Of a stretch of 64,000 nucleotides of DNA, positions 6,706 to 45,733 are shown one piece after another; the stretch's first letter is position 1, and each line of letters begins with the position of its first letter. The notes beneath the pieces are model-generated. The model saw only the letters and a list, made by a program, of their open reading frames with translations, was not told where the DNA came from and searched no databases. The position numbers and the translations under genes are program-made. The stretch is from Burkholderia sp. BCC0506 (lineage in GTDB: Bacteria; Pseudomonadota; Gammaproteobacteria; Burkholderiales; Burkholderiaceae), in contig NZ_CADFEN010000010.1 of assembly GCF_902833145.1 (NCBI RefSeq), positions 124,001 to 188,000 of the forward strand, written 5' to 3'.

Positions 6706-8577
6706 ATGCGCCGATTTCCCGCTTCCGGCGAGCCCGCGCCGGCTTCGACCGGGCCTCGCAACGACTGGCAGACCATCCGGTCGCTGCTGCCGTACCTGAC
6801 CACCTACAAATGGCGCGTCGCGCTCGCGCTCGGCTGCCTGATCGGTGCGAAGGTCGCGAACCTTGGCGTGCCGGTCGTGATGAAGCGCATCGTCGACCAC
6901 CTGTCCGCCGTGCAGCAGCTCACCGCGCTCGGCCGCGCCGAACAGTCGGCCGGCATCGTGCTCGCGGGCGGCGTCGGGCTGCTGGTCGTCGCGTATGCGC
7001 TCGTGCGGCTGTCGACGTCGCTGTTCACCGAGCTGCGCGAAATCCTGTTCTCGAAGGTCACCGAGAGCGCGGTGCGCCAGCTCGCGCTGCAGGTGTTCCG
7101 GCATCTGCACGGGCTGTCGCTGCGGTTTCATCTCGAACGCCAGACGGGCGGCATGTCGCGCGACATCGAGCGCGGCACGCGCGGCATCCAGCAACTGATT
7201 TCGTATTCGCTGTACAGCATCCTGCCGACGCTGGTCGAAGTCGGGCTCGTGCTCGGCTTCTTCGTGGTCAAGTACGACGCCTACTACGCGTACGTGACGT
7301 TCGCGGCGCTCGTCACGTACATCGTGTTCACCGTGAAGGTCACCAACTGGCGCACGCACTTTCGCCGCACGATGAACGAACTCGATTCGCGCGCGAACTC
7401 GCGGGCGATCGATTCGCTGATCAACTACGAGACGGTGAAGTACTTCGGCAACGAGGAGTGGGAGGCGCAGCGCTACGACGAGAACCTGAAGCGCTACCGG
7501 AAGGCCGCGATCCGCTCACAGAACTCGCTGTCGGTGCTGAACTTCGGCCAGCAGGCGATCATCGGCACGGGGCTCGTGTTCATCCTGTGGCGCGCGACGC
7601 AAGGCGTGCTCGCGGGCAGGCTGACGCTCGGCGATCTCGTGCTGATCAACACGTTCATGCTGCAGCTGTACATTCCGCTGAACTTCCTCGGCGTCGTCTA
7701 TCGCGAGCTGAAGCAGAGCCTGACCGACATGGACCGGATGTTCGGGCTGCTGTCGGCGCCGAAGGAAGTGGCCGACCGGCCGGATGCGCGGCCGCTCGCG
7801 GTGGCCGGCGCGCAGGTGCGCTTCGAGCACGTGAACTTCGCGTACGAGCCGTCGCGGCCGATCCTGCACGACGTGACGTTTACGATCGAGGCCGGCACGA
7901 CGACCGCGGTCGTCGGCCACAGCGGCTCGGGGAAATCGACGCTGTCGCGGCTGCTGTTCCGCTTCTACGACCTCGACCGGCAGACGGGCGGCGCGATCCG
8001 GATCGACGGCCAGGACATCCGCGACGTCACGCAGGATTCGCTGCGCGCGTCGATCGGGATCGTGCCGCAGGATACCGTGCTGTTCAACGACTCGATCTAC
8101 TACAACATCGCGTACGGCCGGCCGAGCGCGACCCGCGACGAAGTGATCGCGGCCGCGCGCGCCGCGCACATCCACGATTTCATCGAGAGCCTGCCGAAGG
8201 GCTATGACACGCCCGTCGGCGAGCGCGGGCTGAAGCTGTCCGGCGGCGAGAAGCAGCGCGTCGCGATTGCGCGCACGCTGCTGAAGGACCCGCCCGTGCT
8301 GCTGTTCGACGAAGCGACGTCGGCGCTCGATTCGCGGTCGGAGCGCGCGATTCAGCACGAACTCGACCAGATCGCGCGGCATCGCACGACGCTCGTGATC
8401 GCGCACCGGCTGTCGACGGTCGTGCATGCGCAGCAGATCCTCGTGATGGACCATGGGCGGATCGTCGAGCGCGGCACGCACGACGAACTCGTGCGCGCCG
8501 ACGGGTTGTATGCGCAGATGTGGGCGCTGCAGCAGCAGCGCGCGGCAGCTGGCGGGGAAGAGGCCGAGGCCGCGTAA
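6706..8577 (+). CDS. ABC exporter, fused permease and ATPase (Atm1/heavy-metal type)
   Basis: Half-transporter of 623 residues that should work as a homodimer in the inner membrane. The first 330 or so residues form the six-helix membrane domain; LNFGQQAIIGTGLVFI and ETVKYFGNE are typical of the Atm1/ABCB7 subgroup. The ATPase domain shows Walker A GHSGSGKST, signature LSGGEKQR, Walker B VLLFDEATS and the switch histidine in VIAHRLSTV. Bacterial Atm1 proteins export glutathione-linked compounds and help against heavy metals; that substrate is family knowledge and not visible here. The longer upstream frame is antisense to the thioesterase gene and was not used. Confidence 0.88.
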   Translation: MRRFPASGEPAPASTGPRNDWQTIRSLLPYLTTYKWRVALALGCLIGAKVANLGVPVVMKRIVDHLSAVQQLTALGRAEQSAGIVLAGGVGLLVVAYALVRLSTSLFTELREILFSKVTESAVRQLALQVFRHLHGLSLRFHLERQTGGMSRDIERGTRGIQQLISYSLYSILPTLVEVGLVLGFFVVKYDAYYAYVTFAALVTYIVFTVKVTNWRTHFRRTMNELDSRANSRAIDSLINYETVKYFGNEEWEAQRYDENLKRYRKAAIRSQNSLSVLNFGQQAIIGTGLVFILWRATQGVLAGRLTLGDLVLINTFMLQLYIPLNFLGVVYRELKQSLTDMDRMFGLLSAPKEVADRPDARPLAVAGAQVRFEHVNFAYEPSRPILHDVTFTIEAGTTTAVVGHSGSGKSTLSRLLFRFYDLDRQTGGAIRIDGQDIRDVTQDSLRASIGIVPQDTVLFNDSIYYNIAYGRPSATRDEVIAAARAAHIHDFIESLPKGYDTPVGERGLKLSGGEKQRVAIARTLLKDPPVLLFDEATSALDSRSERAIQHELDQIARHRTTLVIAHRLSTVVHAQQILVMDHGRIVERGTHDELVRADGLYAQMWALQQQRAAAGGEEAEAA

Positions 8578-8669
8578 CGGTGTGGGGCGTGGGGCCCGGC
8601 GCGTGCTGCGTGCCGTGGCGCGCAGCGCGACGGCGGCCCGACGGGTGCGTGGCCGCCCGGCGGCTCTGG

Positions 8670-9389
8670 TCAGCCCGCGGCGCGCAGCCGCGCGTCGAGT
8701 TCCCCGAGCTGCGCGGGCGTGCCGACGTTTTCCCAGATACCTTCGTACAGTTCGCCGCTCGCGTGGCCGGTTTCGATCGCCGCGCGATAGTACGGCGTCA
8801 GCGCGCGCCGCGTGCCGGGCGCGAGGTCGCGGAACATCCGCGTGTCGTACAGGCCGATGTTGCCGAACGTGACGCGCGCCGCGCCGTCGAGCGCGAGACG
8901 GCCGTCGTCGCCGAGCGCGAAGTCGCCGGCCGGGTGGAACGGCGGGTTCGGCACCATCACGAGATGCATCGCCGGCGTGTCGAGCGCGGCCATCCGGGCG
9001 GCGCGCGGCGCGAGCGTCCGGTAGTCGAATGCGCAGTACACGTCGCCGCTGACGGCCGCGAACACGGTCGGTTGCCCGTCGCGTTCGATGAGCGGCAGCG
9101 CCTGCGCGATGCCGCCCGCGGTTTCCAGCGCTTCACCCTCGGCCGAATACGCGAGCCGCACGCCCCAGCGCGAACCGTCGCCGAGCGCGGCCTCGATCTG
9201 CTCGCCGAGCCATGCGTGGTTGATCACGATCGTCTCGATGCCCGCACGCGCGAGCGCCTCGATCTGCCACACGATCAGCGGTTTGCCGCCGGCTTCGAGC
9301 AGCGGCTTCGGGCGGGTGTCGGTCAGCGGGCGCATCCGTTCGCCGCGTCCGGCGGCGAAGATCATCGCCGTGGTCAGGGTCGTGCTCAT
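8670..9389 (-). CDS. murU: N-acetylmuramate alpha-1-phosphate uridylyltransferase
   Basis: Nucleotidyltransferase of 239 residues. IFAAGRGERMRPLTDTRPKP is the sugar-nucleotide pyrophosphorylase signature and VSGDVYC supplies the metal-binding aspartate. MurU makes UDP-MurNAc from MurNAc-1-phosphate, the last step of the cell-wall recycling route that bypasses MurA and so gives intrinsic fosfomycin tolerance. It lies 22 bp behind the kinase gene amgK, and the pair is divergent from lptD-surA-pdxA-rsmA, the same arrangement described in Pseudomonas; this supports the specific name over a generic NTP transferase. Confidence 0.88.
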   Translation of the reverse strand: MSTTLTTAMIFAAGRGERMRPLTDTRPKPLLEAGGKPLIVWQIEALARAGIETIVINHAWLGEQIEAALGDGSRWGVRLAYSAEGEALETAGGIAQALPLIERDGQPTVFAAVSGDVYCAFDYRTLAPRAARMAALDTPAMHLVMVPNPPFHPAGDFALGDDGRLALDGAARVTFGNIGLYDTRMFRDLAPGTRRALTPYYRAAIETGHASGELYEGIWENVGTPAQLGELDARLRAAG

Positions 9390-9411
9390 GGTCGACTGGG
9401 TGTGAGGGCGC

Positions 9412-10461
9412 TCAGAACGTATAGCCGACGTCGGCCGGCGCATTGCCCTCGAGCTCGTCGAGCAGCTTCGCGAACGGTACGAGCGGGCGATAGCGCAGCG
9501 CGACCTTGCGCGCGTACGCGAGGAAGCGCGGCAGGTCGTTCAGGTAGTGCGGCTTGCCGTCGCGGTAGTTGATGCGCGCGAACAGGCCGAGGATCTTGAT
9601 GTGGCGCTGCAGACCCATCCATTCGAGCTGGCGGTAGAACTCGCCGAAATCGGGATCGACCGGCAGGCCGGCCTTTTTCGCCTTTTCCCAGTAGTACGCG
9701 AAGCAGTCGAGCTCGAACGCTTCGTCCCAGCTGATGAACGCGTCGCGCAGCAGCGACACGACGTCGTACGTCAGCGGCCCGTACACGGCGTCCTGGAAGT
9801 CGAGCACGCCCGGGTTCGGCTCGCAGACCATCAGGTTGCGCGGCATGAAGTCGCGCAGCATGAAGCCTTGCGGCTGCGCGTGCGCGCTCGCGACCAGCAC
9901 CGCGAAGGTGCGCTCGAGCGTGCCGCGCATCGCGTCGGTGACCGGCTTGCCGAGGTGGCGGCCGACGAACCATTCGGGCAGCAACTCCATTTCGCGGCGC
10001 AGGAACGCTTCGTCGAACGGCGGCAGCACGTCGGGCTTCGACGCGAGCTGGAAGCGGATCAGCGCGTCGAGCGCGTCGCGCATCAGCGGACGGGCCGCGA
10101 CCGGGTCGGCCGGATCGAGCACCGAGATGTACGACGTGCGGCCGAGGTCGGTCACGAGCATGAAGCCCGCGTCGAAATCGTGGGCCAGCACGTCCGGCAC
10201 GTGGTCGCCGGCCGCGGCGAGCAACTGCGCGACCTGGACGAACTCGCGGCACTTCTCGGGCGGCGGCGCATCGACCGCGATCAGCGTGCCGCCGGGGCTC
10301 GTGGCCGACGCGACGCGGAAATACCGGCGGAAACTGGCGTCCGACGACGCGGGCGCGAGGGTCGACAGATCGAGGGCGTAGCGCCCGGCGAGCGGCTGCA
10401 GCCACGCGGTGAGCGCTTCGAGGCGGGCGTCGGGCTGGGATGCGGCGGATGGGGGTGTCAT
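9412..10461 (-). CDS. amgK: N-acetylmuramate/N-acetylglucosamine anomeric kinase
   Basis: Kinase of 349 residues with the aminoglycoside-phosphotransferase fold. It phosphorylates the anomeric hydroxyl of recovered MurNAc or GlcNAc. Visible are the catalytic-loop region FMLRDFMPRNLMV and the metal-binding LDFQDAVYGP, with SSDASFRRYFRV at the N-terminus as in AmgK. Its product feeds MurU, encoded 22 bp downstream. The start codon is ATG at 10461. The divergent lptD gene begins about 220 bp away, and a TATAAT hexamer sits in between. Confidence 0.88.
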   Translation of the reverse strand: MTPPSAASQPDARLEALTAWLQPLAGRYALDLSTLAPASSDASFRRYFRVASATSPGGTLIAVDAPPPEKCREFVQVAQLLAAAGDHVPDVLAHDFDAGFMLVTDLGRTSYISVLDPADPVAARPLMRDALDALIRFQLASKPDVLPPFDEAFLRREMELLPEWFVGRHLGKPVTDAMRGTLERTFAVLVASAHAQPQGFMLRDFMPRNLMVCEPNPGVLDFQDAVYGPLTYDVVSLLRDAFISWDEAFELDCFAYYWEKAKKAGLPVDPDFGEFYRQLEWMGLQRHIKILGLFARINYRDGKPHYLNDLPRFLAYARKVALRYRPLVPFAKLLDELEGNAPADVGYTF

Positions 10462-10492
10462 GAAACTCGGCGGAGGGGGGAACGTCTTGCCA

Positions 10493-10498
10493 TATAAT
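10493..10498 (+). promoter_or_regulatory. possible -10 element in the amgK-lptD divergent region
   Basis: TATAAT matches the sigma-70 -10 consensus exactly and stands out in this GC-rich DNA. It points toward lptD, about 185 bases upstream of its start codon. No good -35 lies 17 bp before it. Confidence 0.4.
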
Positions 10499-10682
10499 AC
10501 CCCACGACTTTTTTGACGCGCCCCGCGTCAGCTTCCGCCGTGCAGGCTCGCCGCCTGTCGCGCCGTCCGCCCGATCGCCTCCCCGGTTTGCGAAGAGCCG
10601 CAGTCGCGGCCCGACGGCGCGGCCCGCCGCGCGAAGGTGCCGTGCAGGCGCGGTTGACAAGGGGCGATTCGCCAAACGATAG

Positions 10683-13043
10683 ATGCCGCCCAAACCGCTA
10701 TTCCCGAATGTTTTCCCCGGTGACGGGGCGCCGCGCAAACGGCGGCTCGCGCTCGCGCTCCTGGCCGTGCCCGGCCTCGTGCCGGCCGTGTCGTACGCGC
10801 AGCTGTCGGGCGCGGCCGCGCAGCCGCAGCCGCTCGACTCGCCGTGGGATCTGCGTCTCGCGCCCCAGCTCGAGGATCATCCGCTGAAGGACGGCGCGAA
10901 GCCGGCCGCCTTCGTGATCGCCGACCACACGAGCGGCACCGCCGAGCAGGACCTCGCCGCGAAGGGCTCCGCCGAGCTGCGGCGCGGCGACGCCGTCGTG
11001 AAGGCCGACGCGATCCACTACGATCAGGATACCGACATGGCCGATGCGTACGGCCAGGTCAAGGTGATCAATGGCGGCACGTCGTTCGCGGGCCCCGAGG
11101 CGCACCTGAAGATCGAGGCGAACCAGGGTTTCATGACCGCGCCGAAGTACCACTTCAACGTGACGGGCGGGTCGGGCAGCGCGGAGCGCGTCGACATGGT
11201 CGACAACGAGCGCTCGGTGTTCGTCAACGGCACGTACACGGCGTGCCAGTGCTCGACGAATCCCGCGTGGTACATCAAGGGCAGCCGCTTCGATTTCGAT
11301 ACGGGCGCCGACGAGGGCACCGCGCGCAACGGCGTGCTGTTCTTCCAGGGCGTGCCGATCTTCGCGAGCCCGTGGATGACGTTCCCGCTGTCGGGCGAGC
11401 GGCGCAGCGGCCTGCTGCCGCCGACGTTCTCGATGAACTCGAGCAACGGCTTCGAGCTGTCGCTGCCGTACTACTTCAACATCGCGCCGAACCGCGACCT
11501 GACGCTCACGCCGCGCATCATCTCGCGGCGCGGCGTGATGACCGAGGCGACGTTCCGCTACCTGTCGCCGTCGTATTCGGGCACCTTTACGGCCAATTAC
11601 CTGCCGGATGACCGGCTCGCGCACCGCAACCGCTACGCGATCTACTGGCAGCACCAGCAGAACTTCGGCGGCGGCTTCGGCGGCTACGTCTATTACAACA
11701 AGGTCTCGGACAACACGTATCCGGAAGACCTCGGGTCGGCGAACCAGTTCATCAACGGGACGCAGACGCTGTACCAGCAGGAAGCCGGCCTCACGTACAA
11801 CAACGGCCCGTGGTCGGTGCTCGCGCGCTACCAGCACTGGCAGACGCTGCCGCCGTCGATCGCGCCGTACAGCCGCGAGCCGCAGTTGAACGTAAAGTAC
11901 ACGAAGTACAACGTCGGCGGCTTCGACTTCGGCGCGGAAGCCGACTATTCGCGGTTCCGCATCACGACCGCGGATGCGACCGAAGGCGACCGGATCGTCT
12001 TCAACCCGTACATCTCGTACGGCGTGTACGGCCCCGGCTACTTCGTCGTGCCGAAGGTCCAGTACCACTTCGCGTCGTACGACCTGAACTATCTGTCGTC
12101 GACCACGCCGAACAGCCCGAAGCGCTTCACCGAGTCGATCCCGACCGTGACCTTCGACACGGGCCTGATCTTCGACCGTTCGGTGCGCCTGTTCGGCCAG
12201 GACTTCATCCAGACCCTCGAGCCGCGCCTGTACTACGTGTACACGCCGTATCGCGACCAGTCGAACGCGCCGCTGTTCGACACCGCGGAATCGGACTTCG
12301 GCCTCGCGGAGATCTACCAGCCGAACACGTTCGTCGGCAACGACCGGATCGCCGACGCGAACCGGATCACGGCCGGCCTCACGTCGCGCTTCATCGATCC
12401 GCGCACCGGCGACGAGCGCGCGCGCTTCGTGATCGCGCAGCAGTACTACTTCGCCGACCAGCGCGTCACGCTGACCCCCGGGCAGAGCGCCGTGCTGGCG
12501 CGCCACTCGGACCTGATCGTCGGCGCCGCGCTGAAGCTCGGCTCGGGCTTCATGTCGGAAACGGCGTTCCAGTACAACCAGAACAACAATCAGCTCGTGA
12601 AGTCGAGCGTCGGTTTCGGCTACAGCCCGGGCGAGCGCCGCGTGATCAACGTCGGCTACCGCTATACGCGCGCGAACACGACGCTCGACAACCAGCCGAT
12701 CAACCAGTTCCTGGTGTCCGCGCAATGGCCGCTCACGCGCCGCCTGTATGCGATCGGCCGCTTCAACTACGACCTCGCCGGCGATCGCGTGGTCGACGGT
12801 CTGGTCGGCTTACAATACGACGCGGATTGCTGGGCGCTCGGAGTCGGGGTGCAGCGGGCCGCGAACGGCATCAACACGTCGGGGCAGCAGAACTCGTCGA
12901 CGCGATTCATGATGCAGCTGACGCTCAAGGGCTTGTCGACCATCGACAACGGCCTCGTGTCCGCATTCCGCGCCGGGGTGCCGGGCTACACGCCGTTGCC
13001 GCCGCCGCCGCCGCCGATGTCCCGCTTCAGCAACTACGAGTAA
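10683..13043 (+). CDS. lptD: LPS-assembly outer-membrane protein LptD
   Basis: Outer-membrane beta-barrel of 786 residues that, with LptE, inserts lipopolysaccharide into the outer leaflet. A basic, hydrophobic signal peptide ([20 protein letters not shown]) is followed by a periplasmic OstA/LptA-like domain (about 85-175) and the barrel. Cysteines are at 188, 190 (ACQCS) and 716 (DADCW), so the disulfide set differs slightly from E. coli, which has four. A proline-rich tail ends the protein. The codon before the ATG is a TAG stop, and no Shine-Dalgarno is present; a TTGACA lies 24 bp before the ATG. It is the first gene of lptD-surA-pdxA-rsmA. Confidence 0.93.
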
Positions 13044-37852: not shown

Positions 37853-38539
37853 TCAGGACTGCACGTCGCCGAATTCGCCGCGCATGCCGGCTTCGACGAG
37901 CGCCGGCAGTTCGTCCATGTTGCGCATGATCCGCGTGATGCCCATCGCGCGCAGCGCGTCCGCGTAGTTGTCGGGGATGTGGCTCGCGCCGACGAACGCG
38001 ATCGTCTTCATCCCGGCCGCGCGCGCGGCATTCAATCCCGAGATGCTGTCCTCGACGACGACGCAGCGCGCCGGCGCGACGCCGAGCGTCTGCGCCGCGT
38101 GCAGGTAGACGTCGGGGTAGGGCTTCGGCCGCGCGACCTGTTCGGAGCTGAACACCCGCTCGCCGAAGATCTCGGTGAGCGACGCGCGCTTGAGCGAGCT
38201 GCGCACGCGCACGAGCCGGCTGTTCGACACGACGGCGGCCGGCAGCGTGACCTTCAGCAGTGCGTCGCGCACGCCGCCGATCGGCGCGAGCGATTGCGCG
38301 AGCGCGACTTCGATGTTGTGCTCGATGGTCTCGATGAAGTTGGCGGGCATCTCGATTCCGAAGCGGGCTTCGATGCCGGTGAGGAAACGCGACGTCTGCT
38401 GCCCGAATGCCGACTTCGCGGCGGCTTCGAAATCGAGGTTCGGGAACGTGGCGGACAGCGTGTCGAGCAGCACGCGGTCGGCGATGACTTCGCTGTCGAC
38501 GAGCACGCCGTCGCAGTCGCAGATGAGGTGATCGAGCAT
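37853..38539 (-). CDS. HAD-superfamily phosphatase (beta-phosphoglucomutase/phosphatase type)
   Basis: Protein of 228 residues. The HAD motifs are complete: nucleophile DCDGVLVDSE, VVSNS, the lysine in ARPKPYPDVY and VVEDSISGL. It belongs to the subgroup with a helical cap that acts on sugar or polyol phosphates. It is the last gene of the isomerase-isomerase-dehydrogenase run on the minus strand, 191 bp behind the dehydrogenase; no gene was seen in that gap. A role in clearing a phosphorylated intermediate is inference. Confidence 0.82.
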   Translation of the reverse strand: MLDHLICDCDGVLVDSEVIADRVLLDTLSATFPNLDFEAAAKSAFGQQTSRFLTGIEARFGIEMPANFIETIEHNIEVALAQSLAPIGGVRDALLKVTLPAAVVSNSRLVRVRSSLKRASLTEIFGERVFSSEQVARPKPYPDVYLHAAQTLGVAPARCVVVEDSISGLNAARAAGMKTIAFVGASHIPDNYADALRAMGITRIMRNMDELPALVEAGMRGEFGDVQS

Positions 38540-38730
38540 GGTGATGAAAACGCGGGATATCGGCGGCGCCGATCGATTCGCCATCATACGTGCTTTCACG
38601 CGCATGCCGCGCGACGCGGCGGCAAAAGTGCCCGATGCGGCCGTGCGGTTGCCGCATGCCGTACCGGCGTGCCGCCGCTCGCGTGGCCGCCTCGCTCCGC
38701 TTGCCCGGATCGCTGTCGCCGTTCGCGGCG

Positions 38731-39717
38731 TCACAGCTCGATCACGCGCCCCGTTTTCCACGACGTCATCGCGGCGTCGGCCAGTTCGAGCGCGGCGAGC
38801 CCGTCGTCGATCGTCGTCCTGACCGGCGTGCCGTCGCGCAGCGCGTCGACGAAGTGCGCGATCTCGGCCGCGTACGCGTGCCGGTAGCGTTCGAGGAAGA
38901 ACGGCTCCGGCACGTCTGTCGCGATGCCGCCCGCGCACCACGCGCTCACCTCGGTCGGCCGCACGTTGCCGGCCTGCAGCATCCCATGGCTGCCGAGCAG
39001 TTCGAAGCGCTGGTCGTAGCCGTAGGCCGCGCGCCGCGACGTGTTGATCTGGCACAGCAAGCCGCGCCGCGTGCGGATCGTCACGGCCGTCGAATCGATG
39101 TCGCCCGCGTCGCGCACGGCCGGATCGGTCAGGCAACTGCCCGTCGCATGCAGCGTCTGCGCCTCGTCGCCGAGGATCCAGCGGAACACGTCGAAGTCGT
39201 GGATCAGCATGTCCTTGAAAATGCCGCCTGAACTGCGGATGTAGTCGGCCGGCGGCGCGCCCGGGTCGCGGCTCGTCACGATCAGCATTTCGGGCGCGCC
39301 GATCTCGCCCCGCGCGACGCGTGCCTTCAGCGCCGCGAAGGTCGGGTCGAAGCGGCGCTGGAAGCCGATCATGCAGGTCACGCCGGTGCGCCGCACGACG
39401 TCCGCGCACGCGCGCGAGCGTTCGACGGTCAGGTCGACCGGCTTCTCGCAGAACACCGCCTTGCCCGCGTTCGCGGCCGCGACGATGAGGTCCGCATGCG
39501 TGTCGGTGCTCGACGCGATCACGACGGCCTGCACCGCCGCATCGCCGAGCGCGCGCTCGATGTCGGCGACCTGCGCGCCGTGCGCGTGCGCGAGCGCTTG
39601 CGCCGACGGCGCATGGCGGTCGATCACGTACTTCAGTTTCGCGCCCGGATGGCGCGCGAGATTCGCCGCATGGATCTTGCCGATCCGGCCCGCGCCGAAC
39701 AAAGCGAATTCGATCAT
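38731..39717 (-). CDS. iolG: Gfo/Idh/MocA-family dehydrogenase, inositol 2-dehydrogenase-like
   Basis: NAD-dependent oxidoreductase of 328 residues. The Rossmann motif is LFGAGRIGKIHAANLA; FCEKPVDLT carries the conserved lysine; and GGIFKDMLIHDFDVFRWILG holds the catalytic Asp-His pair. These are the features of myo-inositol dehydrogenases and of MocA. It lies 74 bp behind a TIM-barrel isomerase gene. The exact cyclitol or sugar cannot be settled by sequence alone, so the symbol marks the family. Confidence 0.82.
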   Translation of the reverse strand: MIEFALFGAGRIGKIHAANLARHPGAKLKYVIDRHAPSAQALAHAHGAQVADIERALGDAAVQAVVIASSTDTHADLIVAAANAGKAVFCEKPVDLTVERSRACADVVRRTGVTCMIGFQRRFDPTFAALKARVARGEIGAPEMLIVTSRDPGAPPADYIRSSGGIFKDMLIHDFDVFRWILGDEAQTLHATGSCLTDPAVRDAGDIDSTAVTIRTRRGLLCQINTSRRAAYGYDQRFELLGSHGMLQAGNVRPTEVSAWCAGGIATDVPEPFFLERYRHAYAAEIAHFVDALRDGTPVRTTIDDGLAALELADAAMTSWKTGRVIEL

Positions 39718-39791
39718 TCCGTTCTCCTGTGGATTCTGTTGTCTTGCCGATGCGCGACCCGCGTGAGTCGCGCACCGTCACGGCGGTCCGC

Positions 39792-40619
39792 TCAGCGATC
39801 CGCCAGCTCCCCGCGCACGTAGTCGATGCTCGCGCGCAGCCGGTCCTCGATGTCGCCGGCTTCGGCGATTTCGCTCGCGAACGGCTCGAACGACAACGCG
39901 CCGCGGTAGCCGCGCGCGAGCAGTTCGCGCAGTTGCCGGACGTTGCCGAGCCGGTCCGCGCCGCCGACCAGCACGCGGTGGCCGTCGCGCATCCGCTCGA
40001 TTGGCAGGTCGGCTTCCTCGACGCCCGAGAGGTGCACGAGGCCCGTCAGGTTCGGGAAGAAGATGTCCTCGCCGGCGAGGTGATGATGGAACGTGTCGTG
40101 CACGAGCCGGAACACCGGCTCGCCTGCGGCCGCGTAGATGCCCTTCACCGCGTCCGACTTGCGGCGCAGCGCGCACTCTTCGAAGCCGAGCGGCTCGATG
40201 AAGCCGAGCAGGCCGCGGGCTTCGAGGGTCGGCTTCAGCGCCTTCAGTGCGGTCACGAGATCCGCATGGCGGGCGTCTGCGCTGCGCGTGTCGCCGCGGC
40301 TGTTGGTCGGGCACAGCACCAGCGCGCGTGCGCCGCATTGCGACGCGTAGTCGGCCAGCACGGTCGCCTCGTCCGCGCGCTCGGCATTCCACTGCTCGAA
40401 GCGCTGCAGCGCGTTGATCGTCAGGATCGTCACGCCGCCGGCTTCGGCCGTCGCGCGGACGGCGGCGGCCGGCGTGCCGTCGGCGATCTCGACGCCGTCG
40501 AGGTCGTTGCGGATCTCGATCGTATCGACGCCGAGACGCCGGCACAGCGCGACGTAGCGGTCGAGCGGCAAGCGCGGCGCGCTCATCCGGTTCAGCGAAA
40601 AGTGGAAGGCTTGCGTCAT
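39792..40619 (-). CDS. TIM-barrel sugar isomerase (IolI/inosose isomerase-like)
   Basis: AP-endonuclease-2-fold protein of 275 residues. GFIEPLGFEEC and LVHDTFHHHLAG give metal ligands as in IolI and related isomerases; SFEPFASEI supplies the last glutamate. Such enzymes shift keto groups on inosose or epimerise sugars. It sits between a second TIM-barrel gene (37 bp upstream) and the dehydrogenase. Inosose isomerase is the best guess by context. Confidence 0.78.
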   Translation of the reverse strand: MTQAFHFSLNRMSAPRLPLDRYVALCRRLGVDTIEIRNDLDGVEIADGTPAAAVRATAEAGGVTILTINALQRFEQWNAERADEATVLADYASQCGARALVLCPTNSRGDTRSADARHADLVTALKALKPTLEARGLLGFIEPLGFEECALRRKSDAVKGIYAAAGEPVFRLVHDTFHHHLAGEDIFFPNLTGLVHLSGVEEADLPIERMRDGHRVLVGGADRLGNVRQLRELLARGYRGALSFEPFASEIAEAGDIEDRLRASIDYVRGELADR

Positions 40620-40656
40620 CGTTCTGTCCTTGGGGCTTGGGTGGGACGGGTCCGAA

Positions 40657-41676
40657 TCAGGTGCCGGCGCGCGCGGCGAGTGCTTGCCACGTGTCGCGCA
40701 GCCAGTGCGCGCACGCGACGTTGTTGTCGAAGATCGAGTAGCGCGCGCCGCCGCCGTAGTCGGGAAACGGGATGAACTCGCAACTGATCTGCTCGAGTCG
40801 TGCCGGGTGCGCATGAGCGGGAGCGCGAACCTGCGTCTGCGCTTGCAGCAACTGGCGCAGCGCGGCTTTCCACGTGTCGAGCGCATCCGCGCGCCATTGG
40901 CCGTGATAGGCGCCCGGTGCGGGTGCGACGAACGGGTACTGGATGCCGCGGCCGGGCCGGCCGTCCGCGCGGCGCATCCAGCGGTTGACGGGGTTGTCCG
41001 GGCTCACGCTGCGCGCATGCGCATGCCGGACCCAGCCGCGCGCGATCCAGTCGGCGTAGATCGCGGCGGGTGAAGCGGGGTCGAGCATCGCGCGGCCACC
41101 GTCGGCCGATTCGCGCACGCCCGACGCGTCGAGTTCGGCGCGGTTGCCGATCTTGAACAGCAGGTGCGCATGATCGAGCGTGATCCGGAACGGCGCGCCG
41201 GCCTGCTCGACATGCCGCGCGACGCGCGCCACGCGCGCGAAATCCTCGCTCCACATGTCGACGTGCACTTCGAGGCTCGGCAGGCAGCCGACCGGATCGC
41301 CGCATTCATAGGCGCGCAGGTAGAAATCGGCGACCTCGCGATCGGACAGCGGATGGCCGTCCGCGTGATGCGCGAACAGCTGGCAGTTGAGCACCGTGCT
41401 GCCGAAGCGTGCGCCTGCCGCGACGATCTCGGCGACATGCGCTTCGTCGCGGCCCGCGCGCCAGATGCCGCCGATCACGCGAATCGGCAGCGCGTGGCGC
41501 TCGACCAGCGCGAAATACGGCGACAGGTCCTCGCCGCGCGCCGGGTTCTTTTCGATGTAGTCGAACACGCCGGCGGCGGCGACCCGCCGGAAGCGCTCGG
41601 CGGGCGTGGGCGGCGGCAGCCCGTCGTGTTCGAGCACGCCGTCGAGGTTCACGCCGATGAGGATCGGTTCGGCCAT
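40657..41676 (-). CDS. TIM-barrel sugar isomerase/epimerase family protein
   Basis: Protein of 339 residues, first gene of the operon. LEVHVDMWSEDF, FRITLDHAHLLFKIG and the late CEFIPFPDYGGG stretch fit the xylose-isomerase-like TIM-barrel superfamily with a metal site, though it is longer and more divergent than IolE, IolI or MocC. The product is unknown; by position it may handle the first cyclitol intermediate. A perfect palindrome, the likely operator of the LacI-type regulator, lies 72 bases before the ATG. Confidence 0.68.
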   Translation of the reverse strand: MAEPILIGVNLDGVLEHDGLPPPTPAERFRRVAAAGVFDYIEKNPARGEDLSPYFALVERHALPIRVIGGIWRAGRDEAHVAEIVAAGARFGSTVLNCQLFAHHADGHPLSDREVADFYLRAYECGDPVGCLPSLEVHVDMWSEDFARVARVARHVEQAGAPFRITLDHAHLLFKIGNRAELDASGVRESADGGRAMLDPASPAAIYADWIARGWVRHAHARSVSPDNPVNRWMRRADGRPGRGIQYPFVAPAPGAYHGQWRADALDTWKAALRQLLQAQTQVRAPAHAHPARLEQISCEFIPFPDYGGGARYSIFDNNVACAHWLRDTWQALAARAGT

Positions 41677-41747
41677 CGTCTCCTGTCCGTTGTCGTTCGT
41701 GGATGGCTGATCAATGTACGGATGCGCGGCACGCGCCGCATGACAAA

Positions 41748-41769
41748 CGTTGGCGAAAAATCGCCAACG
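41748..41769. promoter_or_regulatory. candidate LacI-type operator before the isomerase operon
   Basis: A perfect inverted repeat CGTTGGCGA-AAAA-TCGCCAACG. Its core TTGGCGA-N4-TCGCCAA recurs with a few changes at 42945-42962 beside the regulator gene. A -35-like TTGTCA (minus strand, 41741-41746) lies right next to it. Confidence 0.7.
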
Positions 41770-41819
41770 CGACGGTCGATTTTTTCGCCGCGAGCACGCG
41801 GCCCGCCGCGCGGCGCGAT

Positions 41820-42884
41820 TCACGGCTGCAGGTACGCGCTCGTCCTCACGTTCGCCGGACAGAACACGCGGAATTCGACCGGATCGTCCGGCGGCGGCTG
41901 CTCGACGATGCCGCACGCATGCAGCACGTGCTGCAATGCGGAAATCGCCTGACCGTCGGGATCCTGGTCGATCGCGAGATCCATCGCGCCCGCTTCGATG
42001 AAGGTGCGGTGCAGGTCGATCATCTCGTGGCCGATCCACACGACGCGCCCGACCGCGCCGGCCTTGCGCAGCGCGGCTTCGATGCCGGCCGACCCGGCGC
42101 CGCTGTTGTAGATCGCGACCACGTCGTCGTGCGCCTGCAGCGCCTTCGACACCGCGCGGTAGCAGCGGTCGTCCTGGTCGAGCGTCTCGATCGGTTCGTC
42201 GTCGCAGCGCAGGGCGGCGAATGCGTCGGCGAGCTGGTCGCGGCAGCCGGCCATCCGGTCGGCGTGGGCGCGGTAGCCCATCCGCCCGCCAAGCAGCAGC
42301 ACGCGGCCGGCGCGCGCGGCAAGGCGGCCGATGTAGTAGCCGGCCGTGCGCCCCGCGCGATAGTTGTCGATGCCGGCGAAGTGCGCGCGGTCGATGCCGC
42401 CGATGTCGGTGACCATCGTGACGACGGTCTCGCCCCGCGCGATCGCGCCGGCCAGTGCGTCGCGTATGCGGGCCGTGTCGTGCGCGGTAACGATCAGCGC
42501 CGCGCGCCGGTAAGCGGGCCGCTCGATCAGCGCGGCGGCGCGCGCGTCGTCCGCGGCGGGCAGGATCGTCCGGTGCACGACCACGCGCCGGTCGAGCATC
42601 TGCAGCGAGCGCTGCAGCGCCTGCTGCAATCGTCGGAAGAACGGCGCGTCGGTGTCCGGCAGCAGTACGTCGACATGGATCAGCCCGTGCCGCGTGTCGG
42701 GCAGCTGGCGCGGCACGCCGAGTTGCCGCGCGGCCGCCACCACGCGTTCGCGTGCCTGCGCGGAGACGCTGCCGCGCTCGTTCAGCACGCGGTCGACGGT
42801 CGTCGTGCTGACGCCGGCGAGCGCGGCGATTTCGTCGAAGCGCGCGGTGCGCTTGCGCCAGCGCGGCCCGGATTCACCTGCCAT
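41820..42884 (-). CDS. LacI-family transcriptional regulator
   Basis: Regulator of 354 residues with the N-terminal LacI helix-turn-helix and hinge (RFDEIAALAGVSTTTVDRVL) and a periplasmic-binding-fold effector domain. It lies between the isomerase/dehydrogenase operon, on the same strand, and the divergent oxygenase operon. I chose the ATG at 42884, which has GGAG seven bases upstream, over two upstream Met codons. Its own promoter appears to contain one of the two operators, which suggests autorepression and control of both flanking operons. Confidence 0.87.
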   Translation of the reverse strand: MAGESGPRWRKRTARFDEIAALAGVSTTTVDRVLNERGSVSAQARERVVAAARQLGVPRQLPDTRHGLIHVDVLLPDTDAPFFRRLQQALQRSLQMLDRRVVVHRTILPAADDARAAALIERPAYRRAALIVTAHDTARIRDALAGAIARGETVVTMVTDIGGIDRAHFAGIDNYRAGRTAGYYIGRLAARAGRVLLLGGRMGYRAHADRMAGCRDQLADAFAALRCDDEPIETLDQDDRCYRAVSKALQAHDDVVAIYNSGAGSAGIEAALRKAGAVGRVVWIGHEMIDLHRTFIEAGAMDLAIDQDPDGQAISALQHVLHACGIVEQPPPDDPVEFRVFCPANVRTSAYLQP

Positions 42885-42933
42885 GGTCGTCTCCATCGTG
42901 AGGGTCGCCATCGATCGCGTGGCGTTGTCGGGC

Positions 42934-42962
42934 ACGCTAAAGCGATGGCGAAATCTCGTCAA
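42934..42962 (-). promoter_or_regulatory. promoter of the LacI-type regulator with embedded operator
   Basis: On the minus strand TTGACG (42957-42962), a 17-base spacer and TAGCGT (42934-42939). The operator-like ATGGCGA-N4-TCGTCAA at 42945-42962 covers the -35, so binding would block the promoter. It matches the palindrome at 41750-41767 in most positions. Confidence 0.6.
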
Positions 42963-42970
42963 CGTTTCGA

Positions 42971-42999
42971 TTGAGGCGGGGTGGCCGCTCGCCTAATTT
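42971..42999 (+). promoter_or_regulatory. candidate promoter of the oxygenase operon
   Basis: TTGAGG (42971-42976), a 17-base spacer and TAATTT (42994-42999), ending 51 bases before the start codon of the membrane oxygenase gene. The shared operator ends eight bases upstream of the -35. Confidence 0.45.
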
Positions 43000-43050
43000 C
43001 GCTCTTGTGGCGAAGCGCGTCCCGCGCACAAGGCACTCCAGGAGACAGAC

Positions 43051-44133
43051 GTGACCCATATCGACGACCCGGCACGCGAGCACACGGCGGCGCGCCGTCG
43101 GGCATACCGAATGATCGGCGGCGCCGGCGAGCGCGCGCAGGCCGCCGGGCTCGTCAACGCTGCGTGGTACCGGTGCGCGGTGCCGCGGCCGTTGATGAAG
43201 CAACTGATGCAGCGCAGCGATGCGCGTGCGATTCGCGACACGCTGATCTGGTACGCGGCGATCGCGATCACGGGCGCGCTCGCGTGGCTGGCGTGGCGCG
43301 CGCATTCGGCGTGGGCGATCCCTGCGTTCTTCGTGTACGGCACGCTGTACTGCAGCCCGGCCGATTCGCGCTGGCACGAATGCGGGCACGGCACCGCGTT
43401 CCGCACACGCTGGATGAACGACGTGCTGTACCAGGTCGCCTCGTTCCAGGTGTTCCGCCGCGCGACCGCATGGCGCTGGAGCCATGCACGCCATCACACC
43501 GATACGCTCGTCGTCGGGCGCGATCCGGAAATCGCCGCGCCGAAGCCGACCGACTGGCTCGCGCTCGCGCTGAACGTCGTCGCGCTCAAGCACGCGGCCG
43601 GCGAGCTGCGCAAGATGGTCGCGGTATCGTTGACCGGCCGGCTCGACGACGAGGAACGCACGTACGTGCCCGAAGCGGAATGGCCGAAGGTCGTGCGCGA
43701 GTCGCGCATCCATCTCGCGATCCACGCGCTCGTGACGGGCGCCGCGCTCTACTGGCACACGATCCTGCCGCTGCTCTACATCGGCCTGCCGAGCCTCTAC
43801 GGCGCATGGCTGTACCTGTACTTCGGGCTCACGCAGCACGCGGGCATGCCCGAGAACGTGCTCGATCACCGGCGCAACTGCCGGACCGTGATGATGAATC
43901 CGGTATTCCGCTTCCTGTACTGGAACATGAACTATCACGTCGAGCACCACATGTTCCCGATGGTGCCGTTCCATGCGCTGCCGAAGCTGCACGAAGCCGT
44001 GAAGGCCGACATGCCGCCGCCGTACCGCAGCACGCTTGCGGCGTACGCGGAGATCGTGCCGGCGCTGGTCCGGCAGACGCGCGACCCGTCCGCTTGCGTC
44101 GTGCGGCCGGTGCCCGATGCCGCGCGCGCCTAG
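43051..44133 (+). CDS. membrane di-iron oxygenase of the fatty-acid desaturase family (MocD-like)
   Basis: Protein of 360 residues with hydrophobic segments at about 63-100 and 225-275 and the three histidine boxes of membrane di-iron enzymes: HECGH (109-113), HARHH (145-149) and HVEHH (296-300). Together with the Rieske ferredoxin and the ferredoxin reductase that follow, it matches the MocDEF set of rhizopine catabolism, where MocD is thought to remove the O-methyl group of methyl-scyllo-inosamine. Here the substrate may be a methylated inositol; that is inference from neighbours. A lipid desaturase is less likely because the dedicated electron chain is of the ring/ether oxygenase type. The start is GTG with AGGAGA upstream. 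Confidence 0.78.
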   Translation: MTHIDDPAREHTAARRRAYRMIGGAGERAQAAGLVNAAWYRCAVPRPLMKQLMQRSDARAIRDTLIWYAAIAITGALAWLAWRAHSAWAIPAFFVYGTLYCSPADSRWHECGHGTAFRTRWMNDVLYQVASFQVFRRATAWRWSHARHHTDTLVVGRDPEIAAPKPTDWLALALNVVALKHAAGELRKMVAVSLTGRLDDEERTYVPEAEWPKVVRESRIHLAIHALVTGAALYWHTILPLLYIGLPSLYGAWLYLYFGLTQHAGMPENVLDHRRNCRTVMMNPVFRFLYWNMNYHVEHHMFPMVPFHALPKLHEAVKADMPPPYRSTLAAYAEIVPALVRQTRDPSACVVRPVPDAARA

Positions 44134-44169
44134 CCGTTATCGAATATCCCGACGAAGGAGACACACACC

Positions 44170-44478
44170 ATGACGCAATGGATCGACACCGGCGCGCTCG
44201 ACGACATCGACGACGAAGACGTCGCGCGCTTCGATCATGCCGGCCACACGTATGCGATCTACCGGATCGACGGCCAGGTTTATGCGAGCGACGGCCTGTG
44301 CACCCACGAGCAGGTGCATCTCGCGGACGGGCTCGTGATGGATCACGTGATCGAATGCCCGAAGCACAACGGCCGCTTCGACGTGCGCGACGGCCGGCCG
44401 CTGTCGGCACCCGCGTGCGAGAAGCTGCGCACGTACCGTGCGAAGATCGAGGACGGTCGCATCCTGATCGAGGTGTGA
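44170..44478 (+). CDS. Rieske [2Fe-2S] ferredoxin (MocE-like)
   Basis: Soluble protein of 102 residues with one Rieske domain. The cluster ligands are Cys44-x-His46 (CTHEQ) and Cys63-x-x-His66 (CPKHNGRF). It should pass electrons from the reductase encoded 4 bp downstream to the membrane oxygenase encoded 36 bp upstream. GGAGA precedes the ATG. Confidence 0.88.
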   Translation: MTQWIDTGALDDIDDEDVARFDHAGHTYAIYRIDGQVYASDGLCTHEQVHLADGLVMDHVIECPKHNGRFDVRDGRPLSAPACEKLRTYRAKIEDGRILIEV

Positions 44479-44482
44479 CGCG

Positions 44483-45733
44483 ATGACCAGCGACCGGGTG
44501 ATGGCGATCGTCGGCGCGGGCCATGCGGGCGGGCGTGCCGCGCAGGTGCTGCGCGCGTCCGGCTGGCGCGGGCGCATCGTGCTGATCGGGGCGGAGCCGC
44601 ATGGGCCGTACGAGCGGCCGCCGTTGTCGAAGGGCGTGCTGACGGGCGAGCGCAGCGCGGCGCAATGCCGGCTGCGCGATACCGAAGCCTGGGCGGCCGA
44701 CCGCATCGAGCGGATCGTCGGGACCGTCGAGCGCATCGATCCGCGCGCACGCGAGGTGCGCGTGTCGGGCGGGCACGTGTTCGGCTACGACGCGCTGCTG
44801 CTGGCCACCGGCGGCCGCGCGCGCCGTCTGGCCGTTCCGGGCGCGGCGCTCGACGGCGTGGTCGCGTTGCGCACGCTCGACGACGCGGCCGCGCTCGGCG
44901 CGCGGCTCGTGCCCGACGCGCGGATCGTGCTGGTCGGCGGCGGCTTCATCGGTCTCGAAGTCGCGGCGTCGGCGCGGCAGCGCGGCTGCCGCGTGACCGT
45001 GCTCGATGCGGCGCCGCGGCTGCTCGGCCGCGCGGTGCCCGAAGCCATCGCGATGCGCGTGCAGTCGCTTCATGACGAGCGGGGCGTGGCGATCCGCCTG
45101 AACCGGACGCCGGTTGCGATCGAGCGGGCATCGGGCGGTGCACTGGCCGTCGTGCTCGACGACGGCGACACGCTGCTCGCCGACACGGTCGTAACCGGCA
45201 TCGGCATCGAGCCGGCTGACGAGCTGGCGCGCGATGCGGGCCTCGCGGTCGAGCGCGGCATCGTCGTGAACGCGCAGCTCGAGACGTCGGCGCGCGGGGT
45301 CTTCGCGGCGGGCGACGTCGCCGTGTTCCCGAGCGTGTTATCGGGGCGGCCGGTTCGACAGGAGACGTGGCACGGCGCCGACACGCAGGCGCACGTCGCC
45401 GCCCGCAACATGCTCGGTGCGGGCGAGCCGTATCGCGACATGCCGTGGTTCTGGTCCGATCAATACGATGCGCAATTGCAGGTGGCCGGGGAGCCGGCGC
45501 TCGGCACGCGGTCGGTCGCGCGCGTGCTCGGCGACGACGCGGAAATCCATTTCCATTTCGATGCGCTCGCGCGGCTCGTCGCGGCGAGCGGCTTCGGCCG
45601 TGCAGCGGGATTCGTGAAGGACATGCGCGTGGCGCGCATGCTGGTCGAGCGCGGGATCGACGTGACGCCGGCGGCGCTCGCGGACGTCGGCGTGAAGCTG
45701 AAGTCGCTGGTGACGGCCGCGAACGGCCGGTAG
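44483..45733 (+). CDS. NAD(P)H:ferredoxin reductase, FAD-dependent (MocF-like)
   Basis: Protein of 416 residues of the oxygenase-coupled ferredoxin reductase type. The FAD-binding motif is IVGAGHAGGRAAQVL, followed by YERPPLSK; the NAD(P)H motif is VLVGGGFIGLEVAASARQRG; the second FAD motif is GVFAAGDVA. It completes the three-component oxygenase: reductase, Rieske ferredoxin, di-iron oxygenase. It converges on glpF. Confidence 0.88.
   Translation: MTSDRVMAIVGAGHAGGRAAQVLRASGWRGRIVLIGAEPHGPYERPPLSKGVLTGERSAAQCRLRDTEAWAADRIERIVGTVERIDPRAREVRVSGGHVFGYDALLLATGGRARRLAVPGAALDGVVALRTLDDAAALGARLVPDARIVLVGGGFIGLEVAASARQRGCRVTVLDAAPRLLGRAVPEAIAMRVQSLHDERGVAIRLNRTPVAIERASGGALAVVLDDGDTLLADTVVTGIGIEPADELARDAGLAVERGIVVNAQLETSARGVFAAGDVAVFPSVLSGRPVRQETWHGADTQAHVAARNMLGAGEPYRDMPWFWSDQYDAQLQVAGEPALGTRSVARVLGDDAEIHFHFDALARLVAASGFGRAAGFVKDMRVARMLVERGIDVTPAALADVGVKLKSLVTAANGR

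Follow-up and report, generated by a model that had tools for sequence, protein, structure and literature searches.

The rhizobial genes mocD, mocE and mocF have been assigned to the use of rhizopine (Bahar 1998, as cited in PMC10107442 and PMC5132102). Two related layouts are already published. In rhizobial clusters such as that on pRL11 of R. johnstonii 3841, a FixV-like LacI regulator lies divergent from mocDEF beside an Msi119-like TIM barrel, and inositol-derivative catabolism has been proposed for this layout (PMC3538637). In Pseudomonas syringae, mocDEF is followed by the xylose-isomerase-like gene xylA2 (PMC5132102). Other parts are shared with the methylxanthine cluster ndmABCDE/Alx and with the IolG/IolI branch of Bacillus subtilis, a dehydrogenase and inosose isomerase pair that acts on D-chiro-inositol without an oxygenase (PMC3176187). 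Here, we analyzed a 64,000-nucleotide stretch of Burkholderia sp. BCC0506 (contig NZ_CADFEN010000010.1, positions 124,001 to 188,000; hereafter the window), in which a MocDEF-type oxygenase set lies divergent from a LacI-family regulator, a divergent TIM-barrel protein termed TIMx, an IolI-like TIM barrel, and IolG. We propose, with a probability of about 0.6, that the locus is a LacI-controlled unit in which an O-methylated cyclitol is demethylated and then fed to inositol breakdown. The locus is a compact candidate for methyl-inositol demethylation with its own regulator and operator-like sites, and TIMx represents a family of unassigned function beside genes of O- and N-demethylation, the ndm clusters included. 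No description of this Burkholderia unit, of TIMx, or of a bacterial route for demethylating pinitol or other O-methyl-inositols was found among the best matches in the open-access literature.

Eight genes, arranged in divergent minus and plus arms, lie between ribB and glpF in this 7.29 Mb genome. The flanks at 35-49 kb of the window, named from sequence reading, hold an XRE-cupin gene and ribB on one side and glpF, glpK, and glpD on the other. The genes and the two operator-like sites are as follows.

37853-38539, minus: HAD hydrolase (HAD_2, 71.5 bits; start set by eye)
38731-39717, minus: iolG (P0002), inositol 2-dehydrogenase (TIGR04380, 411.9 bits against a cut-off of 355)
39792-40619, minus: P0003, IolI-like TIM barrel, proposed inosose isomerase (AP_endonuc_2, 80.8 bits)
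40657-41676, minus: P0004 (TIMx), divergent TIM barrel by predicted fold, proposed demethylase partner on the one-carbon side
41750-41767: operator-like palindrome TTGGCGA-AAAA-TCGCCAA in the lacI-TIMx gap (14 of 14 positions; seed of the scan)
41820-42884, minus: LacI-family regulator (P0005; LacI PF00356 and Peripla_BP_4 PF13407); open reading frame open to 42962, start set to match the annotated homologue on plasmid L051
42945-42962: second operator-like site, in the lacI-mocD gap (12 of 14 positions)
43051-44133, plus: mocD-like membrane di-iron oxygenase (P0006; FA_desaturase PF00487, 134 bits)
44170-44478, plus: mocE-family Rieske [2Fe-2S] ferredoxin (P0007; TIGR02377, 141.5 bits against a cut-off of 136.15)
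44483-45733, plus: mocF-like NAD(P)H ferredoxin reductase (P0008; Pyr_redox_2, 221.8 bits, and Reductase_C)

Domain and family models agree with the gene set given in the initial annotation, namely a MocDEF-type trio divergent from a LacI regulator, two TIM barrels, IolG, and a HAD protein. MocD carries the histidine boxes HECGH, HARHH, and HVEHH and shares about 52% identity with homologues on rhizobial plasmids; MocE contains CxH...CxxH. P0002 was the sole match above the TIGR04380 cut-off among six in the genome, and its best PDB match was the inositol 2-dehydrogenase 4hkt. For P0003, the PDB entries 4hgx and 2q02, uncharacterised by name, were far closer than IolI (1i60, profile E 3.9e-12). 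With the rhizobial rhizopine genes, the locus shares MocD-, MocE-, and MocF-type genes in order and a MocE above its family cut-off, but it has LacI instead of MocR, no MocA, MocB, or MocC in the locus, and a divergent arm with IolG, IolI-like, and TIMx genes. The rhizobial LacI-TIM-mocDEF clusters share the LacI gene divergent from mocDEF and the adjacent IolI-like barrel; they differ in a PanB-like gene after mocF where the Burkholderia unit has TIMx, in the absence of IolG from two R. leguminosarum-type stretches (L054, L056), and in a LacI only about 27-28% identical. The ndmABCDE/Alx cluster has a TIMx relative (31-35% identity), often with formaldehyde genes near, whereas its oxygenases are of the Rieske and not the membrane di-iron kind, and no inositol genes were found in it. 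None of the eight genes encodes an NdmA, NdmB, or NdmC Rieske oxygenase or an NdmD reductase, leaving TIMx as the sole part shared with ndm clusters.

The oxygenase arm and the isomerase/dehydrogenase arm are a single unit because they co-occur, have operator-like sites in common, and stay linked in rearranged order in two other genera. One genome per species was scanned with P0004, which gave 39 loci, 21 of them from Burkholderia; the closest was that of B. latens, whose TIMx shows 99% identity. LacI, TIMx, and IolI-like genes were found jointly in all 21 Burkholderia loci, and mocD with mocE in 20, the remaining one (L016) ending at a contig border. In L015, mocF was fragmentary. A B. cenocepacia plasmid (L051), predicted to be conjugative, bears the same gene set without the HAD gene; among plasmid records, 5 of 53 with TIMx matches and 6 of 286 with MocD matches were fetched. 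In Aquabacterium and Hydrogenophaga, the set is rearranged but stays together inside inositol clusters that include, as named from sequence reading, ABC transporter genes, an IolC-like fusion, an RpiR regulator, and more IolG genes. Across 61 sampled Burkholderia genomes, mocD (at least 87% identity) was present in 31 and TIMx (at least 82%) in the identical 31, with a nominal probability of 4e-18 that is overstated, as the species are related and not independent. One further genome of this sample, G453, has a MocD only 42% identical and no TIMx. The co-occurrence check suggested with the initial annotation has thus been run, and the unit withstood it.

The same sample revealed where the unit divides. 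The IolI-like gene occurred in those 31 genomes plus G405, G445, and G452, which have lacI and the IolI-like gene without mocD or TIMx matches; iolG is present in G445 and G452. No mocE or mocF was found in the stretches from these three genomes, the G445 contig beginning just before lacI. The unit is thus naturally split in two: mocDEF with TIMx form the half proposed for demethylation, and lacI, the IolI-like gene, and iolG form the cyclitol half. TIMx is therefore grouped with the oxygenase. TIMx as a plain second IolI was rejected: the IolI-like gene occurs in three genomes that lack mocD and TIMx, and TIMx was never found without mocD in the 61.

Co-occurrence also bears on the alternative that mocD encodes an enzyme of lipid desaturation or hydroxylation and lies next to an inositol unit by coincidence; a lipid desaturase was a finding that the initial annotation had named as one that would overturn its reading. 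Membership of the FA_desaturase family is consistent with such an enzyme. However, curated desaturase models were far from matched (DesB, 40.5 of 500 bits; DesA, 20.3 of 500 bits), mocD has the same 31 genomes as TIMx, operator-like sites are common to both arms, and the set is rearranged yet linked in two other genera. By this context, a lipid enzyme appears very improbable.

The locus shows features of LacI-type control, a regulator with a LacI head and palindromes in both intergenic regions. A TTGRCGAAATTTCGYCAA-like palindrome was detected in the lacI-TIMx and lacI-mocD gaps of all 20 Burkholderia loci scanned, in a scan seeded on the window's own site and controlled by a simple base shuffle. 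The sites scored 11-14 of 14, and the shuffled sequences averaged 8.0-8.6 and reached at most 10-12. At L023 (lacI-mocD) and L013 (lacI-TIMx), the score equals the best of 100 shuffles. The site at 41750-41767 is the sole exact occurrence in the genome. At up to two mismatches, 17 sites per strand were counted, not above the reversed control (19), and the support for the second site therefore comes from its position and conservation. The same site stands at the LacI gene start in Hydrogenophaga, where LacI is 53% identical to P0005. In the mocDEF-less loci L152, L154, and L189, the palindrome is altered to TTGCCGA in one or both halves, and LacI identity is 77-81%, compared with 85-98% in full Burkholderia loci, a pattern that looks like a joint shift of regulator and site. 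Binding of LacI to both palindromes is predicted from these sequences.

From gene families and context, we infer the demethylation, its substrate, the order of the steps, and the role of TIMx. LacI would sit on the palindromes before both arms, and an inducer would free mocDEF and TIMx-iolI-iolG at once. NAD(P)H would supply electrons, relayed by the reductase and then by the Rieske ferredoxin, to MocD, the membrane di-iron oxygenase, which would hydroxylate the O-methyl group; the resulting hemiacetal would break into free inositol and formaldehyde. IolG would oxidise the freed inositol, and the IolI-like protein would turn the keto-inositol into scyllo-inosose; the remaining breakdown would fall to the iol cluster of the chromosome (IolE, IolD, IolC, MmsA, and an ABC transporter). 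TIMx would be a metal-dependent enzyme of the demethylation half, with the hydroxymethyl intermediate or formaldehyde as its substrate. The BCC0506 genome has its own iol cluster with an IolE above the cut-off and an ABC transporter, which may be the transporter absent from the unit. At 56-73 kb of contig C3 (L139, L140), the inositol cluster includes several genes for Gfo/Idh/MocA and TIM-barrel proteins.

Pinitol and other O-methyl-inositols are plentiful in legumes and conifers. A methylated cyclitol, the substrate class named in the initial annotation, is favoured by the gene context, and we regard this class as likely. The choice of D-pinitol (3-O-methyl-D-chiro-inositol) as the particular substrate is more tentative and falls somewhat short of even odds. 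It is preferred because its demethylation would yield D-chiro-inositol, which IolG and IolI convert to scyllo-inosose, as in B. subtilis (PMC3176187), and because pinitol was the component measured at the highest concentration in Mimosa root exudate (PMC5789663). The initial annotation had also considered a rhizopine, in which case the substrate would be 3-O-methyl-scyllo-inosamine, as with rhizobial mocDEF. The presence of MocD, MocE, and MocF homologues suits this, and PMC3538637 calls the rhizobial LacI-mocDEF clusters rhizopine genes. Yet none of the genes from ribB through glpD, the part of the genome examined for this purpose, is of the MocA, MocB, MocC, or MocR type, and the regulator is LacI and not MocR, so that rhizopine is a quite improbable substrate here.

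TIMx justified its description as the divergent one of the two TIM barrels. It had no Pfam or NCBIfam match at E 0.001, fell short of PF01261, and had no PDB match by sequence, its profile giving a single chance-level PDB match (E 0.74). The AlphaFold2 model (predicted local distance difference test score 87.8, predicted TM-score 0.89) is a xylose-isomerase-like TIM barrel. With Foldseek, the best match was UlaE (3cqj, E 2.9e-8, TM-score 0.54/0.64), and IolE (9zmu) was found at E 3.0e-7; the top PDB fold matches were sugar epimerases/isomerases and IolE.

The company of the distant relatives of TIMx (31-42% identity) points in another direction. Of 23 loci, 21 hold genes for Ndm-type oxygenases or reductases (L049 was counted on a 26% oxygenase match alone), and 20 have NdmC and NdmD; the formaldehyde dehydrogenase FrmA is present in 15. 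These loci are not independent, several being near-identical (e.g., L041/L042 and L039/L040). Two belong to the Pseudomonas strains S31 and S37, which carry ndmABCDE according to PMC8055839. In the two loci without Ndm genes, TIMx stands beside FrmA (Aminobacter) or beside a MocF-like reductase (L126). In L126 (contig C43 of G196), the TIMx relative and then the reductase occupy 9011-11295, upstream of genes that read as sugar-acid-like, and no oxygenase was recognised near the TIMx relative. Because TIMx occurs in Burkholderia only with mocD and its relatives mostly with caffeine-type N-demethylases, it is probably not a cyclitol isomerase, contrary to the initial annotation, which had taken both TIM barrels for isomerases. 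Families and context suggest a role on the one-carbon side instead, to which we give a little less than an even chance.

To survey the company of MocD more widely, 398 Pseudomonadota genomes were sampled. MocD was found in 31 of them (E <= 1e-40) at 41 places; 34 places other than the window's own, at least 45% identical, were fetched, 6 weaker ones being left out, and 10.6-19 kb was searched around each. As controls, 20 stretches at round positions chosen by the analyst were taken from 8 of the same genomes. IolG, IolI-like, and sugar-binding protein genes accompanied MocD in 10, 3, and 10 of the 34 loci, compared with 0, 0, and 1 of the 20 controls, respectively. Two further partners emerged: a ketopantoate hydroxymethyltransferase-like (PanB-like) protein, whose representative matches PF02548, in 14 loci, and a second TIM-barrel type, TIM12, in 7; both were absent from the 20 controls. 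The two were never found together, and 13 loci had neither; this exclusivity (P 0.014), like the Fisher values, is weak evidence, since related genomes are not independent. Where present, the PanB-like or TIM12 gene is a same-strand neighbour of mocE or mocF, except in L102, where it adjoins mocD and no mocE was found. The PanB-like protein occurred in 17 of the 398 genomes, and MocD was present in 16 of those 17. PurU follows mocF in Nitratireductor and follows the PanB-like gene in L113 (contig C22 of G123), where mocD, mocE, PanB-like, and PurU genes stand consecutively on the minus strand from about 6959-9055 onwards, a possible formaldehyde-to-formate route via tetrahydrofolate. In five loci (L093-L096 and L103), mocD is grouped with LacI, a sugar-binding protein, IolG, and a short-chain dehydrogenase.

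TIM12 links MocD to other oxygenases. It was found at 19 places in 18 of the 398 genomes. Seven of these places adjoin MocD; 11 of the other 12 were fetched, G390 being left out. In four of these (L178, L179, L181, and L188), TIM12 shares a gene group with an FA_hydroxylase-type oxygenase, accompanied by MocE and MocF in L179, L181, and L188 and by LacI in L178, L179, and L188, which suggests further demethylase-like systems. In L182, L183, L185, L186, and L187, it stands beside a distant FA_desaturase gene, and in L180 a PhyH oxygenase is one gene away; no oxygenase was recognised near it in L184. In G453 (L159), the order is mocD, mocE, mocF, TIM12, FrmA, and the roughly 1.1 kb between mocE and mocF (about 10465-11619) matched no protein of the panel. 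We tentatively take the xylA2 gene of P. syringae to be of the TIM12 type that lies after mocF in other genomes, and its layout would then differ from the Burkholderia one in that TIM12 is only remotely like TIMx. The remote likeness extends over most of the length (hhalign probability 58, E 9.8e-5), and E-x-H, D-x-S-H, H, and C-E elements are common to both by eye. Together, their company spans MocDEF di-iron oxygenases, FA_hydroxylase-type oxygenases, and Rieske caffeine N-demethylases. TIMx and TIM12 might be two branches of an undescribed metal-dependent TIM-barrel family, partners of oxidative demethylases acting on the hydroxymethyl intermediate or formaldehyde and replaced elsewhere by the PanB-like protein; we advance this as a speculation that is rather doubtful as yet. 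If true, it would add a new enzyme class to one-carbon metabolism and caffeine breakdown.

Several observations weigh against the proposed demethylation scheme. IolG is whole or nearly whole in 18 of the 21 Burkholderia loci, but L024, L027, and L028 carry a truncated or split gene, and no iolG was found in the G405 stretch. A Caballeronia plasmid (L053), the one examined of three such plasmid matches, carries MocD (76% identical) and MocE in a stretch that lacks TIMx, mocF, and IolG. The pairing of MocDEF with inositol genes is not universal, as the IolG and IolI-like counts among the 34 loci demonstrate. On the bifunctional D-chiro model, P0002 scored 134.3 of 540, and its chiro specificity is a candidate property only. 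FrmA stood beside none of the 34 other MocD loci and none of the 20 controls; a formaldehyde dehydrogenase as the constant partner of MocDEF is unsupported, G453, outside that set, being the only case among the MocD loci seen. Among the operon genes of the window, Pfam domains revealed no formaldehyde gene of known type. This last absence favours an alternative in which MocDEF hydroxylates the cyclitol ring itself (e.g., turning quercitol, a deoxy-inositol, into inositol), TIMx isomerises or epimerises the product, and no formaldehyde arises. The sugar epimerases and isomerases among the fold neighbours of TIMx and the cyclitol oxidation assigned to one arm favour it as well. We consider ring hydroxylation improbable, since TIMx relatives stand beside N-demethylases that yield formaldehyde but no sugar among their products (PMC4408171), TIM12 adjoins FrmA in G453, and PanB-like and PurU genes lie downstream of moc genes in other bacteria.

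The demethylation scheme could also hold with TIMx as a cyclitol isomerase required solely for the product of this one methyl-inositol, its relatives in caffeine clusters having a different function. Ten Ndm-linked TIMx rows carry Q at the position of H222 and D at that of E302, where Moc-linked ones have H and E (302 taken from the alignment); by analogy, both positions presumably belong to a metal site. The two groups may differ in function, judging from these residues, and the relatives outside inositol loci are just 31-42% identical. Five ndm genes were enough to convert caffeine to xanthine in E. coli without TIMx (PMC4463537), and the five-gene E. coli caffeine system of PMC13237722 also runs without a TIMx-type gene. 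On the other hand, the family stands beside two unrelated kinds of oxidative demethylase, and beside FrmA in Aminobacter. An isomerase role of this kind is therefore unlikely, though it is the strongest of the alternatives considered.

The HAD gene marks the border of the unit. It was present in 60 of the 61 Burkholderia genomes, including ones without mocD. In the four unit-less genomes fetched (L151, L153, L155, and L156), glpF, HAD, and ribB are adjacent, and all four retain a remnant of the mocF end, some 100 to 240 bases in length. The HAD gene is therefore resident, and the unit was lost in those lineages. A HAD phosphatase as a pathway enzyme was rejected on this distribution. Of the oxygenase joined to an isomerase-dehydrogenase operon in the initial annotation, the linkage of the two arms stands, but the HAD gene is not a member.

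Two variants of the unit were observed. G423, a B. latens-like genome, holds two copies, L157 and L158 (also numbered L028 and L021), and iolG is truncated in one of them. In L019, L022, and L023, about 1.3 kb of extra DNA lies between the IolI-like gene and iolG. A porin gene (Porin_4) fills this stretch at 11965-13143 of L022 and 12069-13190 of L023, and this Gram-negative porin is a possible outer-membrane route for the substrate.

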